Positions 3,803 to 9,444 of a stretch of DNA of 38,249 bases are shown here, piece by piece. The notes under the pieces were generated by a model, which was not told the origin of the DNA, did not search any database, and was given only the letters and a program-made list of their open reading frames with translations. Position 1 is the first letter of the stretch. Each line of letters opens with the position of its first letter. This DNA is from Candidatus Binatota bacterium (lineage in GTDB: Bacteria; Desulfobacterota; Binatia; UBA1149). The position numbers and the translations under genes are program-made. The stretch lies in NCBI GenBank assembly GCA_012960245.1, contig DUBO01000008.1:1-38249 (forward strand), written 5' to 3'.

Positions 3803-4615
3803 TCAGCCAGCGGCTATGTCTTCGCCGCCGTCTACGCCCAGCACATTGCCAGTCAGCCAGGTGCCGCCGGGCTGCATGAGCAGGCTCACCAACTCGGCTA
3901 TGTCGCCGGGCTCAGTCAGGCGGCCGCCGGGGTTGACCGAGCGGGCGTGCTCCTTGAGATCGTCGGCGCCCGGAATGTGGGCCAGCGCCGGGGTGTCGGT
4001 GACCCCCGCGCGTATGGCGTTGACTGCCACTCCGCGCGGCCCGAGCTCGAGCGCGAGCTGGCGAACGTAAGCCTCCAACGCAGCCTTGGCGGCCGACACC
4101 ATGCCGTAGGAAGGAGCAGCACGCGTGCTGCCCGCCGAGGTCATAGCCATCACCCGCGATCCTTCACCCAGCAGGCGCCGCCAGGCCAGCTCCTGCGTCC
4201 ACGCAACCAGCGAGCTGGCCATCACGTTGAGGGTCATGGCCATCTGCGAGTCGCGTGCCGAAGCACTCGCGTCCTCGCCCACCAGCGGCGCGAGTGACCC
4301 GAAGGCCAGCGAGTGAAACAACAGCGACACGCCGTCGGCGCCCGCCAAGGGCTCGAGCTGGTCGAGTACCAGGGTCATCTTGTCGCGGTCTACGGCGTTG
4401 ACGTTAAAAAAAAGCGACTCCACGCCAGCTTCTTCCACCGCCTCGCGGGCACGGTCGGCCAGCGGCATGGTGGAACGGCGATCGAGGTGAACGCCGCAGA
4501 TATTGTACCCCTCGGCAGCCAGCCGGGCCGAAACCGCCGAGCCGAAGCCGCTCGACGCCCCCAGCACTACCGCCCACTTGCCTTCCCCTGCTTCTGACCT
4601 TCCCTCTTGATCCAT
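3803..4615 (-). CDS. enoyl-ACP reductase-like SDR (FabL/FabI type)
   Basis: A 270-aa short-chain dehydrogenase. The nucleotide-binding start is VVLGASSGFGSA (about residues 17-27). The catalytic region reads SYGMVSAAKAALEAYVRQLA: Tyr170 and Lys177 are separated by six residues (Y-x6-K), the spacing of enoyl-ACP reductases FabI/FabL, whereas ordinary SDRs have YxxxK. The HSLAFG segment resembles the FabI HSIGF block, and the C-terminus (ALAHIPGADDLKEHARSVNP...GNVLGVDGG) resembles FabL of Bacillus. Such enzymes reduce trans-2-enoyl-ACP with NAD(P)H in fatty acid elongation. I chose the ATG at 4613-4615; a frame open to 4720 would add a 35-residue non-homologous leader. It is transcribed divergently from the small membrane protein gene at 4732. 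An SDR with another substrate cannot be excluded. Confidence 0.72.
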   Translation of the reverse strand: MDQEGRSEAGEGKWAVVLGASSGFGSAVSARLAAEGYNICGVHLDRRSTMPLADRAREAVEEAGVESLFFNVNAVDRDKMTLVLDQLEPLAGADGVSLLFHSLAFGSLAPLVGEDASASARDSQMAMTLNVMASSLVAWTQELAWRRLLGEGSRVMAMTSAGSTRAAPSYGMVSAAKAALEAYVRQLALELGPRGVAVNAIRAGVTDTPALAHIPGADDLKEHARSVNPGGRLTEPGDIAELVSLLMQPGGTWLTGNVLGVDGGEDIAAG

Positions 4616-4731
4616 GATGAGCAAAGATAATGGCCGCTCGCCCCATGGGCAAACCCCGGCTTGGACCCGGGCCCGGCTTTTGTTAGCCTTGCCGAGCCGA
4701 TACGAACGATACCGCCTCAAAGGAGGGCTTG

Positions 4732-5010
4732 ATGTCAGAAGAAAATAGAACAGCCGAACAGGAACTACAGGAAGCCATGTGGCTCTGGATGCAGCGGCTG
4801 GTATTAGCCCTGGCCCTTCTGGGTGCAGGATATTTTGCAGCTTGGTACCAGGCCAAGGATTACACCGAGATAAAAGTGGGACTCGGAGAAGCCAACGACA
4901 CTATCGTTGACCTCAAGAACGAGCGAGAGACTCTCTCTACCCGCATAGCCCGTGAGTTGCGAGACAAGGAAGTCTGCCGCAAAGAACTCAGGGCTCTCAA
5001 AAGCAAGTAA
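4732..5010 (+). CDS. small membrane protein with coiled-coil tail, unknown
   Basis: A 92-aa protein starting at the ATG at 4732, with a strong AGGAGG ribosome site at 4721-4726; a TTG one codon earlier is less likely. It has one transmembrane segment at about residues 22-41 (RLVLALALLGAGYFAAWY). A charged helical region rich in heptads follows (LGEANDTIVDLKNERETLST...RELRDKEVCRKELRALKSK), probably a cytoplasmic or periplasmic coiled coil. I do not recognise the family. The strong ribosome site and clean composition support a real gene. It is divergent from the FabL-like gene and convergent with the small acidic protein downstream. Confidence 0.7.
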   Translation: MSEENRTAEQELQEAMWLWMQRLVLALALLGAGYFAAWYQAKDYTEIKVGLGEANDTIVDLKNERETLSTRIARELRDKEVCRKELRALKSK

Positions 5011-5034: not shown

Positions 5035-5316
5035 TCAGTCCTGCAGCAGCGGTACGAAATTTCTCACGGCGCCAAGCAGGGCCTGGGCGTCCGGGCTTTC
5101 AGCACCGAGTTCGAGCGAAAGATCGAACAGCCCTCGCACGCGCGCGTTGTCGCGATCGCCCTCGGGCAACGACAGCGCCTGGGCGAGTTCATTGAGCATT
5201 GGCTCGAGTTCGAGCTTACGCTCGGTGGGCATGTCGTCGTCTATCGCCACGAGCAATATGCAACGGTCGATAAGCCTCGCCACCATTTCTTCGTCTGACA
5301 TCACGCGCTTCGTCAC
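5035..5316 (-). CDS. small acidic hypothetical protein
   Basis: An acidic, helix-rich protein of 93 aa from the GTG at 5316, or 88 aa from the ATG at 5301 (MSDEEMVARLIDRC), which has a GAAG six bases upstream. There is no signal peptide, membrane segment or recognised domain. It lies 27 bp downstream of the TPR gene on the same strand, so the two are probably co-transcribed and may work together. The composition fits the surrounding coding sequence, and the opposite strand offers nothing more convincing. Function unknown. Confidence 0.6.
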   Translation of the reverse strand: MTKRVMSDEEMVARLIDRCILLVAIDDDMPTERKLELEPMLNELAQALSLPEGDRDNARVRGLFDLSLELGAESPDAQALLGAVRNFVPLLQD

Positions 5317-5343: not shown

Positions 5344-5700
5344 TCAGTCGTCTTCGCCCGATAGCTGACGCTTCCAGTCCAGCATTTTAGCCGCCGCGCC
5401 CGCGGCCTCGGCCTCCTCGATACGACCTGCCCTCTGGTAAAACATCGAGAGGTTGGTCTGCGCCAGTATGTCGTCGGGGTCGAGTTCGACCAGGCGCAGC
5501 GCCACGTTGATGGCGTCATCCATCTCGCCGCGCTCCATGTACACCATGGCCTTGCCCAGCAGTGCGTCGCGGTAATTGGGGTCGAGCTCGAGACAGGCCT
5601 CGAAGCAGACCATAGCCTCGTCGTAGCGACGCTCGCCGTGCAGGTCACAGCCGTCGTAAAACAGCTGCTCGATATCCTTGTCGTCACCCGAGCTTGCCAC
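5344..5700 (-). CDS. tetratricopeptide repeat protein
   Basis: From the GTG at 5700 the protein is 118 aa (MASSGDDKDIEQLFYDGCDL...). It carries about three TPR units: a first around YDGCDLHGERRYDEAMVCFEA, a second around YRDALLGKAMVYMERGEMDD, and a third around ILAQTNLSMFYQRAGRIEEA. TPR proteins act as protein-protein adaptors, and no enzymatic domain is present. The frame stays open to 5865, but that extension overlaps the divergent LuxE-like gene and does not look like protein, so the internal GTG is preferred. It lacks a clear ribosome site. The probable partner is the small acidic protein downstream. It lies head-to-head with the luxE-luxC-aminotransferase operon and may share its control region. 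Confidence 0.75.
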   Translation of the reverse strand: MASSGDDKDIEQLFYDGCDLHGERRYDEAMVCFEACLELDPNYRDALLGKAMVYMERGEMDDAINVALRLVELDPDDILAQTNLSMFYQRAGRIEEAEAAGAAAKMLDWKRQLSGEDD

Positions 5701-5712
5701 TACGCCAGTTAG

Positions 5713-5730
5713 AGTAGTATCTGTACCACT
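5713..5730. promoter_or_regulatory. imperfect inverted repeat in divergent intergenic region
   Basis: AGTAGTAT (5713-5720) and GTACCACT (5723-5730) form an inverted repeat with two mismatches and a 2-bp centre. It lies between the TPR gene start (5700) and the LuxE-like start (5824) and could be an operator acting on one or both divergent units. This is only a pattern; no regulator is known and no second copy was noticed. Confidence 0.2.
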
Positions 5731-5823
5731 AGTTGCAAGGCTCGCAAGTCGGACCGCCCGCGGCGCCGTGACAAAATCGGCTGCGAGTGGCCCAGCGCGG
5801 GCCGGTTTACAGAGAAACCGCCA

Positions 5824-6897
5824 GTGCAGGAAAAAATCGAAAAGTTCATTTCCGCCGACATTCACGACGACAAGTGCAGCTTCGAAAAACTCGCCCTTGA
5901 GTTATTCGGCTACCAGTACGAACGCGTACCGCTGTACCGACAGTTCTGCGACGCGAGACAGGCCAGCCCCTCTTCGGTAAGCGAGTGGCAACAGGTGCCC
6001 GCCCTGCCTGCTGACGCGTTCAAGCAACAGCTCGTCGACCACGGCGAAGAGGCCCACGTTTTCCTGAGCAGCGGAACCAGCGAGGGCCTGGACAAACGCA
6101 GCCGTCACCAGTTGACCACGCTGTCAACCTATCGTTTGTCGGCCATGACTTTTTTCAACGAGATGGTGCTACCCGACGAACCGGGATCGATGAGCGTGTT
6201 ACTGGCCGGACCGGGCGTGGACAGCCACCCCGACTCCTCGCTGGGCAGGATGTTTTCCTGGGTCTACGAGGAGACGGCCGCCGCCGGTTCGGAGGTGGTC
6301 TTCGATGGTGATGGCGAGCTCGACACCGCTGCCGCACTCGAGTGGCTCGGACGGGTATCTGCCGACAACAGGCCGGTTCTGCTGCTGGCGGTGAGCTCGG
6401 CGCTCACTGCGCTGCTCGCCCGCATGCGCGACGAAAAGATGTTCTGCCGCCTGCCCGGTGGAAGCCGCGTCGTAGACACCGGAGGACGAAAAGGAGCCGC
6501 CCCGACCTACTCCGCAGCAGGTATGCGCAAGGCCTGTTGGCGCTACCTGCACGTTCCGGGTTACATGTGTGTGAATGAGTATGGCATGACCGAGATGCTC
6601 TCCCAGTACTACGACGATGCGCTGGTCAGCCGGCACCGCGGACGTATAGACCACAGGATCAAGAGCGGGCCGCGATGGTGCCGCCACGTGGTGGTAAGCC
6701 CCTCCACCCTCCAACCGGTAGCCGACGGCGAGGTCGGCCTGCTCAAGCATATCGATCTTGCCAACTGGGAATCGGTGAGCGCACTGCAGACCCTGGACCT
6801 CGCGCGCAGGGTCGACGACGGTTTTCAGCTTGTCGGCCGTGCCAGCGCCGCGCAGCTGCGCGGCTGTTCACAACTGCTGACGATGGTGGAAAACTGA
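5824..6897 (+). CDS. LuxE-family acyl-protein synthetase (acyl-activating enzyme)
   Basis: A 357-aa protein. Family motifs in order: YRQFC near residue 38; the nucleotide-binding SSGTSEG at 82-88; DTGGRKG at 218-224; NEYGMTEM at 251-258; and a C-terminal RGCSQ whose Cys348 matches the LuxE cysteine that carries the acyl group. LuxE enzymes adenylate a fatty acid, move it to their own cysteine and pass it to the LuxC reductase. The start is the GTG at 5824; no ATG is available nearby. The LuxC-like gene follows after 4 bp, so the two almost certainly act together. No luxA, luxB or luxD is present, so the aldehyde is not made for light in this operon. The family call is strong; the acyl substrate is unknown. 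Confidence 0.87.
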   Translation: MQEKIEKFISADIHDDKCSFEKLALELFGYQYERVPLYRQFCDARQASPSSVSEWQQVPALPADAFKQQLVDHGEEAHVFLSSGTSEGLDKRSRHQLTTLSTYRLSAMTFFNEMVLPDEPGSMSVLLAGPGVDSHPDSSLGRMFSWVYEETAAAGSEVVFDGDGELDTAAALEWLGRVSADNRPVLLLAVSSALTALLARMRDEKMFCRLPGGSRVVDTGGRKGAAPTYSAAGMRKACWRYLHVPGYMCVNEYGMTEMLSQYYDDALVSRHRGRIDHRIKSGPRWCRHVVVSPSTLQPVADGEVGLLKHIDLANWESVSALQTLDLARRVDDGFQLVGRASAAQLRGCSQLLTMVEN

Positions 6898-6901
6898 GTC
6901 C

Positions 6902-8227
6902 ATGGAACGCAGGCAAGTGGAATCATCGCAGACCGAAACCACAGAACTGGTGCTGGGCCAGCAACTTGCCAAGGCCGAGGAGGCGCGCAAGACGGCGCTG
7001 GCCACCCTCGACAACTCCGAGATCGTGGAGGCGCTCGCCGAGGCCGCCGGCGCCTGGAGCGAGCAGGATTCCGAGCTCCGGCGTGGCGCCGCGGCTTTCC
7101 TGGCCGAGCACGGCCACATGTCGGCCGCCATGCTCGAGCAGGGACTGGGTTCCGTTTTCTCTGCCATCACCACCAGCTCGATGGAGAACCTTCTCAGGCG
7201 CGAATGCCCCGACCCGCCGGCGCTCGAGCACGCGACCATAAACAAGGCCGGCGAAGCGGTAAGACTACGCGGCCCATCGCTGGTGTTTCACTCCCTGGCC
7301 GGCAACACGCCCGGCATGGGCATACCGGCAATCGTGTGCGCGCTGCTGGCACGATCCTGCTGCCTGCTGCGCGACAGCTCGCGGCAGCCCATCATCAACG
7401 GGGCCTTCGCCGACACCCTGGCCGCCGTACACCCATTGCTCGGCTCCATGGTGGTGGCCACCGAATGGGAGGCGGGCGACCGACGCATGGAGTCTACTGC
7501 CATGCGCGTAGCCTCGCGGGTGGAGATCTACGGCAGCGACGAAACCATGGACCGCATGGCGTCGCGCTACGGCGGCAGGTCGATAGTAGAACACGGCAGC
7601 AGGGTCTCGTTGGGGCTGGTACCGGCTGACGCCGACACCGACCAGTGGGCTCGCGGACTCGCGCAGGACGTGGCCATGTACGAGGGCCTGGGCTGCCTGA
7701 GCATGTCGCTGCTGCTGGTCGAAGGACCCGCCGACCGCGCCGCGCGCATGGCCCACAAGCTAGGCTTAGAACTGTCGCGCCTGCAGCGCCTGTGGCCGCG
7801 CGGCCCCCAGGACCTCGACCTCGAGACCTCGAGGCGCGCCTTCATAGGACGGGCCGAACTATCGTCGGCCGGCAACCACGACGAGGTGCTCCTCAGGGGT
7901 CGCGACGACAGCTGGGTCGTACACGTTGACCCGCGCGCCAAGCTCGACCCCGGCTGCGGGCTGCGAGTTGTAAAGATAGTGCCGGTACACGACCGCGAGG
8001 CTACCCTCGAGCTGCTCGAAAGCTCGAAGGTGCCGATCGCCGGCGTGGCGCTCGCCATGAACTCGGACAGCCGCAACTGGAAAGAAACCGTCAACGACGT
8101 CTACTCCTGCGAGGCCACCCTGGTGTGCGCGCCCGGCCAACTGCAAACCCCGCCGCTCGGCTGGAGGCAGGACGGTCACCAACGACTTGGAGACCTGCTG
8201 GACTGGTACAGGGACGAGCAGGCGTGA
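6902..8227 (+). CDS. LuxC-family acyl-CoA/acyl-protein reductase
   Basis: A 441-aa protein of the usual LuxC length, starting at the ATG at 6902. It is an NADPH-dependent reductase of the aldehyde dehydrogenase fold that takes an acyl group from LuxE or CoA onto its own cysteine and releases a fatty aldehyde. The catalytic block is DVAMYEGLGCLSMS, with Cys265 as nucleophile. FHSLAGNTPGMGIPAIV (129-145) is the conserved cofactor region, followed by LLARSCCLLRDSSRQP. It lies 4 bp after the LuxE-like stop and overlaps the aminotransferase start by 4 bp (GTGA), so all three should be translated in step. The chain length of the substrate cannot be read from sequence. Confidence 0.88.
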   Translation: MERRQVESSQTETTELVLGQQLAKAEEARKTALATLDNSEIVEALAEAAGAWSEQDSELRRGAAAFLAEHGHMSAAMLEQGLGSVFSAITTSSMENLLRRECPDPPALEHATINKAGEAVRLRGPSLVFHSLAGNTPGMGIPAIVCALLARSCCLLRDSSRQPIINGAFADTLAAVHPLLGSMVVATEWEAGDRRMESTAMRVASRVEIYGSDETMDRMASRYGGRSIVEHGSRVSLGLVPADADTDQWARGLAQDVAMYEGLGCLSMSLLLVEGPADRAARMAHKLGLELSRLQRLWPRGPQDLDLETSRRAFIGRAELSSAGNHDEVLLRGRDDSWVVHVDPRAKLDPGCGLRVVKIVPVHDREATLELLESSKVPIAGVALAMNSDSRNWKETVNDVYSCEATLVCAPGQLQTPPLGWRQDGHQRLGDLLDWYRDEQA

Positions 8228-9444
8228 CGCCCCGGGCCGTTTTTCCCGGTTTCTCGAGCAGCCTCGCTTTGACCTCTGACTCCCCGGTGGGAGTGGTAGT
8301 TGACCGCGCACGCGGCTGCTTGATCTACGACCCCGGGGGCAAGGAGTACCTCGACCTGCTGTCGGGCATGGGAGTGGCAGCTCTTGGCCACGCCCACCCA
8401 CGCGTGGTCGAAGCCGTCAGCGCCCAGGCCGCGCGCCACCTGCACGTCATGGTCTACGGTGAGTACGTCATCGAATCGCAGGTGCGCCTGGCCGCGCGCC
8501 TGGCCGGCCTGCTACCCGCCGGCCTCGACAAGGTCTACTTTACCAACTCGGGAACCGAGGCTGTAGAAGGCGCGATAAAGATGGTGCGCAAGGCCACGGG
8601 GCGAAGCGGCATGTTGGCGTTTCGTGGCGCGTTTCATGGTGACACCACCGGCGCCGTGGCCCTCGGCGGCAACCCCTTGTACCGCGACCCCTTCGTCCCG
8701 CTGCTGCCCCATTGTGGCCTGCTCGAATTCAACGACACGGGCTCGCTCAAGGCCATCAACGAATCCACTGCCGCGGTGTTTGTCGAGCCGGTGCAATCCG
8801 AGGCCGGCGTGATACTGCCCGAACCGGGATTCCTGGCCGAACTCGCCGCGAGCTGCCGCGCCGCGGGCGCGCTGCTGGTGTTCGACGAGGTCATCACCGG
8901 CCTGGGCCGCACCGGCTCGCTGTTCGCGCTTGAGCGCGAAGGCGTGGTGCCCGACGTGCTGCTGCTTGCCAAGGCCGTTGGCGGCGGGCTTCCGCTCGGA
9001 GCCTTCATCGCGTCTGAAAAACTGATGTCTATTCTTTCGCAGGACCCACCGCTGGGCCACGTGACCACCTTTGGTGGCCACCCACTCAGCTGCGCGGCCG
9101 GGCTCGCCACGCTCGAGGTCATCATCGAAGATCATTTACCCGCGCGCGCCGCCAAGCTGGGGGACTACTTTGCCGATGCCTTGACGACCGCCATGCAGGG
9201 TGACGGACTGCGCGAAGTTAGACACGCTGGCCTGCTGCTGGGCCTGGAAATGGACAGCCCCTCACTGGCCGAGGCCTTCGTGGCCGAATGCCTGGAGGAG
9301 CGGCTGCTCACGGGCCGAACCCTGCACGACGACGGCCTCATCAGGCTCGCGCCGCCACTGATCATAAGCGAAGCCGAGCTCGACGACGCGGTCCTGCGCA
9401 TGCAGCGCGCGTTGTCCCGCGCCCGTTCACAGCCCGACGCCTGA
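8224..9444 (+). CDS. class III PLP-dependent aminotransferase in lux-like operon
   Basis: A 406-aa protein from the GTG at 8224, whose bases form a GTGA overlap with the LuxC-like stop; a longer frame from 8125 would lie inside luxC and is rejected. Class III motifs: FTNSGTEAVEGAIK (106-119), FRGAFHGDTTGA (133-143), VFDEVITGLGRTG (219-231, Asp221 contacting the PLP ring nitrogen) and LLLAKAVGGGLPLGA with Lys250 as the Schiff-base lysine. Relatives act on ornithine, GABA, diaminopelargonate or other omega-amines and aldehydes. Coupling to an acyl reductase suggests it aminates the aldehyde released by LuxC, giving a long-chain amine or amino lipid. Prodigiosin PigE is a loose precedent, where a reductase and a class III aminotransferase act in sequence. 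The fold is certain; the substrate is inferred from context. Confidence 0.87.
   Translation: MTPRAVFPGFSSSLALTSDSPVGVVVDRARGCLIYDPGGKEYLDLLSGMGVAALGHAHPRVVEAVSAQAARHLHVMVYGEYVIESQVRLAARLAGLLPAGLDKVYFTNSGTEAVEGAIKMVRKATGRSGMLAFRGAFHGDTTGAVALGGNPLYRDPFVPLLPHCGLLEFNDTGSLKAINESTAAVFVEPVQSEAGVILPEPGFLAELAASCRAAGALLVFDEVITGLGRTGSLFALEREGVVPDVLLLAKAVGGGLPLGAFIASEKLMSILSQDPPLGHVTTFGGHPLSCAAGLATLEVIIEDHLPARAAKLGDYFADALTTAMQGDGLREVRHAGLLLGLEMDSPSLAEAFVAECLEERLLTGRTLHDDGLIRLAPPLIISEAELDDAVLRMQRALSRARSQPDA

Follow-up and report, generated by a model that had tools for sequence, protein, structure and literature searches.

Among the described systems closest to the locus considered here, the Lux fatty acid reductase of luminous bacteria, in which LuxC and LuxE operate with LuxD, resembles it in its parts, since in both a LuxE-type enzyme with a C-terminal Cys adjoins a LuxC-type enzyme with an active Cys, and the two proteins of the locus match those of the solved LuxC-LuxE complex 7xc6. 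With other systems the resemblance lies in the proposed order of reactions. For tambjamine YP1, PtTamA and PtTamH convert a C12 acid into the C12 amine with ATP, NADH and glutamate (PMC9594044), and for PigE, an enzyme of prodigiosin synthesis, the succession of thioester reduction and transamination was observed in lysate, although not with the purified enzyme (PMC8341465). The LuxE-LuxC pair itself also occurs outside luminescence, as in the flagellar glycan islands of Aeromonas (PMC7874193), where its neighbour is a glycosyltransferase, and on a Pantoea plasmid, where the neighbour is an SDR; in neither case is it a class III aminotransferase.

The window analysed here, that is the whole stretch of 38,249 nucleotides, is a complete contig (G000:C8) of a 2.8-Mb genome (96% completeness) of the class Binatia, the nearest named relative being the UBP10 (Binatota) assembly UBA1149, with a LuxC identity of 94%. 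In contrast to the Lux reductase, its LuxE-LuxC pair has no luciferase or LuxD gene alongside and is followed by a gene for an aminotransferase (AT), which in one family of the class is fused to LuxC. With PtTamA and PtTamH the resulting trio would share a succession of three steps, in which an acid is activated, its thioester reduced and the aldehyde transaminated by a class III enzyme, and in the fused form it also shares the union of reductase and transaminase on one chain; the donor for TamH is glutamate, and the Binatia AT keeps the glutamate-type Arg. However, in TamH the transaminase comes first and a domain of the acyl-ACP-reductase type second, whereas in Binatia the LuxC-type reductase comes first, and activation, performed in TamA by an ANL-ACP fusion, falls here to LuxE, with no ACP seen in the operon. 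PigE likewise joins a reductase, placed first, to a class III aminotransferase within a single chain, but its reductase domain is related to acyl-ACP reductases, whereas the Binatia reductase is PF05893 LuxC, and we know of no LuxE partner for PigE. Since the reductases of TamH and PigE are of the acyl-ACP-reductase type, the Binatia set, with its LuxC-type reductase, is a different combination. A search of open-access literature, which lacks most subscription papers, brought up no account of a LuxE-LuxC-aminotransferase set, and the main text of the Binatota genome paper (PMC8262859) does not mention LuxC or LuxE. Our reading is that the trio probably constitutes a three-step module from carboxylate to amine, comprising activation by LuxE, reduction by LuxC and amination by the AT.

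The three genes of the operon

Table 1. Features at and beside the operon, numbered from the first nucleotide of the window
Feature	Position	Strand	Remarks
FabL-like SDR, possible accessory	3803..4615	-	enoyl-ACP-reductase-type Y-x6-K; PF13561, 141 bits
TPR protein	5344..5865	-	Pfam TPR; divergent from luxE
LuxE-like acyl-activating enzyme	5824..6897	+	357 aa; SSGTSEG motif, C-terminal RGC with Cys348; PF04443
LuxC-like acyl reductase	6902..8227	+	441 aa; Cys265; PF05893
Class III PLP aminotransferase (AT)	8224..9444	+	406 aa; GTG start; Lys250, Asp140, Arg374; PF00202

An earlier reading of the window, made from the letters alone (the sequence-only reading), had described three closely packed plus-strand genes encoding a LuxE-like protein with SSGTSEG and RGCSQ motifs, a LuxC-like reductase with Cys265 and a class III PLP aminotransferase with Lys250, and both the open reading frame coordinates and the Pfam matches bear this out. 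Between the end of the luxE stop at 6897 and the luxC start at 6902 there is a 4-bp gap, and the luxC TGA (8225-8227) overlaps the GTG of the AT gene (8224-8226) by 4 bp. The mechanically assigned start of the latter frame, at 8125, is too early, as homologues begin at about 8224, and the start at 8224 gives the Lys250 numbering of the earlier reading. Each protein exceeds the Pfam cut-off of its family (33 against 24.9 bits for LuxE, 155 against 21 for LuxC and 339 against 30.5 for the AT with Aminotran_3), and homologue profiles match 7xc6 nearly over the full length, at 2.9e-25 for LuxE (18 homologues) and 2.6e-40 for LuxC. Cys265 aligns with the Cys of the Photobacterium-type LuxC (7xc6_A), and Cys348, in RGCS, with the Cys of KGCS in 7xc6_E. 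No substitution of Cys265, Cys348 or Lys250 occurs in 44-58 homologues, the sole missing value being an alignment gap, and Cys348 is kept in 54/54 LuxE homologues examined.

The operon comprises these three genes only, without trace in it of luxD or luciferase genes, luxAB having been looked for in the neighbourhood; PF02273 (luxD) has no match in this genome, as is likewise the case in the control genomes. Both LuxE and LuxC score far below the cut-offs of the luminescence equivalog models NF052244 and NF052251 (39.8 versus 550 bits for LuxE, 51.7 versus 750 bits for LuxC), so that the substrate length of the Lux enzymes cannot be transferred to them.

Homology to the Lux enzymes, together with the kept cysteines, suggests that LuxE would adenylate a carboxylic acid, which is probably a fatty acid, and form a thioester on Cys348, whereupon LuxC would accept the acyl group on Cys265 and reduce it with NAD(P)H to the aldehyde. 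Judging by its family, residues and linkage, the dedicated AT would then take the aldehyde to a primary amine, with glutamate or a similar compound as donor.

Relationships of the aminotransferase

When 19 Binatia ATs were placed in a tree together with seven class III enzymes of E. coli and three further ones from this genome, the Binatia ATs formed a single clade (94/95 support) apart from ArgD, AstC, GabT, PuuE, BioA, PatA and HemL, the long branches of BioA and PatA being unsurely placed; the tight grouping with acetylornithine or GABA enzymes, a possibility raised in the sequence-only reading, is not observed. One could nevertheless suppose that the AT is an ordinary amino-acid enzyme such as ArgD or GabT, which merely lies near genes whose aldehyde serves some other purpose. 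Its best NCBIfam scores are indeed with acetylornithine transaminase models, but even these stay under the curated cut-off (356 versus 457 bits), as do its scores with every other curated model shown, and the genome holds a separate ArgD-type enzyme with the FHGR motif (G000:C56, L054). The PigE equivalog model matches the AT only, at 287 versus 850 bits.

In ArgD and in ornithine and GABA enzymes, the carboxylate of the substrate is bound by the Arg of the FHGR motif, and that of glutamate by another Arg. At the FHGR position all 43 of 43 Binatia AT sequences have Asp (Asp140), a residue found there also in BioA, and the glutamate-type Arg374 is kept in every Binatia sequence reaching that position. 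The change from Arg to Asp140 fits a putative aldehyde/amine substrate that has no carboxylate in this position. Identity of the AT with ArgD, GabT, BioA or PatA was rejected on the basis of the tree, these residues and the separate ArgD-type enzyme.

Linkage, fusion and substrate in the class Binatia

The distribution of LuxC and the AT was followed by profile searches in 148 genomes of the class. LuxC is matched in 106 of these (105 after dropping one weak match) and the AT, at a threshold of E <= 1e-120, in 101, each of which also has LuxC. The triplet, initially noted in one genome, is conserved beyond it. In 86 genomes the AT lies on the strand of LuxC and starts under 300 nt downstream of it, with a median of 53 nt between profile matches; in the remaining AT genomes it lies within 2.7 kb of LuxC (9 genomes), at 14 kb (one) or on another contig or strand (5), the distance in some genomes of family f7 being 1.3-2.6 kb. 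Families f5 and f14 are without a match to LuxC or the AT among the matches listed. The trio was also sought elsewhere in the phylum and rejected there, the LuxE-LuxC pairs outside the class being without the AT, and the best AT score reaching 412 bits as against 532-701 bits within the class. Over 38 loci the pairwise distances of LuxE, LuxC and the AT correlate (Spearman 0.66-0.74), a result that genome kinship alone would give likewise. Across the class these loci retain an AT identity of at least 50%, while that of LuxC falls to 22% and that of LuxE to 34%.

In 13 genomes of family f8, LuxC and the AT occupy one open frame, a contig end cutting LuxC in two of them and the AT in one. The linkers between the profile matches vary in length and sequence, and each of the ten longest fusions retains the Cys of LuxC as well as the PLP Lys, FHGD Asp and glutamate-type Arg of the AT. 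In one fused protein (L047:7450-10269, minus strand) the reductase domain is again PF05893 LuxC; its AlphaFold2 model is of moderate quality (pLDDT 74, pTM 0.52), and a Foldseek search with it yielded class III PLP enzymes as all 50 matches listed, a result which adds little about the LuxC domain or about possible channelling.

At the level of sequence, the in-frame fusion provides direct evidence for a joint action of the reductase and the aminotransferase. With an AT lacking LuxC in 0/148 genomes, and with the two fused in 13, the supposition of an ordinary amino-acid enzyme lying near by chance becomes highly improbable, and is close to refuted. The trio is very probably a functional acid-to-amine module; class-wide linkage, co-occurrence and fusion lend strong support to the proposal of the sequence-only reading that the aldehyde made by LuxE and LuxC is passed to the AT.

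A long-chain acid, with a fatty amine or amino lipid as the product, would be plausible on the model of TamA/TamH and PigE, this part of the earlier proposal being an analogy because of the low luminescence equivalog scores. Alternatively, the acid that gives rise to the amine could be a short or a functionalised one (dicarboxylic, amino or aromatic, for instance), in the manner of ArgB/C/D or LysZ/Y/J, which lead from a carboxylate through a semialdehyde to an amine. The nearest solved relatives of the AT, which are of the LysJ/acetylornithine type (1vef) and a putrescine AT, would accord with such a substrate, as would the remoteness of LuxE and LuxC from the luminescence enzymes; yet the carboxylate-binding Arg of ArgD and GabT is replaced by an invariant Asp, the reductase is LuxC and not a semialdehyde dehydrogenase of the ArgC type, and the substrates of characterised LuxC and LuxE are fatty acids, so that we regard a short acid as unlikely. 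Far less credible still is amination of a hopanoid side-chain aldehyde. HpnO likewise belongs to the class III ATs and has a lipid aldehyde as its substrate, and many Binatia possess a squalene-hopene cyclase, but a full-length cyclase match is absent from this genome and from the other 12 of its order, although the trio is present in 11 of these 13, and LuxE and LuxC would be left without a role; hopanoid amination was consequently rejected.

Returning to the acid-to-amine module, we put forward tentatively, as a possibility somewhat short of an even chance, that it represents a class-wide dedicated route from fatty acid to fatty amine, in which a Lux-type reductase was recruited to a new AT family independently of TamH and PigE, and that a long-chain amine is normally present in most Binatia as a lipid or signal component. 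Should the acid-to-amine reading hold, a widespread class of uncultured bacteria would employ a Lux-type reductase pair to make amines, such that enzymes known from bacterial light production would serve another purpose, and an undescribed amine would be expected in Binatia. It would also represent a further independent acid-to-amine design, of potential use in biocatalysis, with activation, reduction and amination in compact and partly naturally fused form.

Neighbouring genes and related loci

No further gene is common to all trio loci. The FabL-like enoyl reductase to which the sequence-only reading had drawn attention does exist as an SDR with the Y-x6-K spacing, yet its score on the FabL equivalog model is far under the cut-off (143 versus 328 bits) and its connection with the trio, which it adjoins in families f1, f3, f4, f9 and f11 only, is confined to some families. 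An orthologue is found in just 23/58 relatives, LuxC being present in 22 of these 23 carriers, and the SDR was accordingly rejected as a fixed part of the module. The divergent TPR gene is a conserved neighbour of luxE in several families. Two conserved small genes (window positions 4729-5010 and 5035-5316; each of about 93 aa, one of them including a hydrophobic stretch), for which there is no Pfam match, likewise lie beside the trio in several families. In one genome a gene of the luciferase-like monooxygenase family (L077:12851-13879; PF00296, 173 bits) is situated about 4 kb from luxE; this family is broad, and the gene is probably not LuxA or LuxB.

In other classes of the phylum, LuxE-LuxC pairs at four loci (L062-L064 and L067) are accompanied by genes for an isopropylmalate synthase-like protein, aconitase-type dehydratase subunits, an FAD oxidoreductase and a peptidase U32-like protein, these names having been assigned partly by eye. 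At L068:6260-8953 and L070:6906-9407 LuxC is fused to an AMP-binding (ANL) domain and adjoins a LuxE, and L069 contains a long LuxC frame resembling both.

A relative of the AT is encoded on a plasmid of Aureibacter tunicatorum (L111:11956-13176), where it reaches 503 bits against the Binatia profile, retains VMVYGE and has HGN instead of HGD. A GNAT gene lies directly upstream and the plasmid has no LuxC match, so that the link between the AT family and LuxC is not universal. Within the class, a histidine kinase gene directly follows the AT in family f12, in all three loci examined (L074, L075 and L078).
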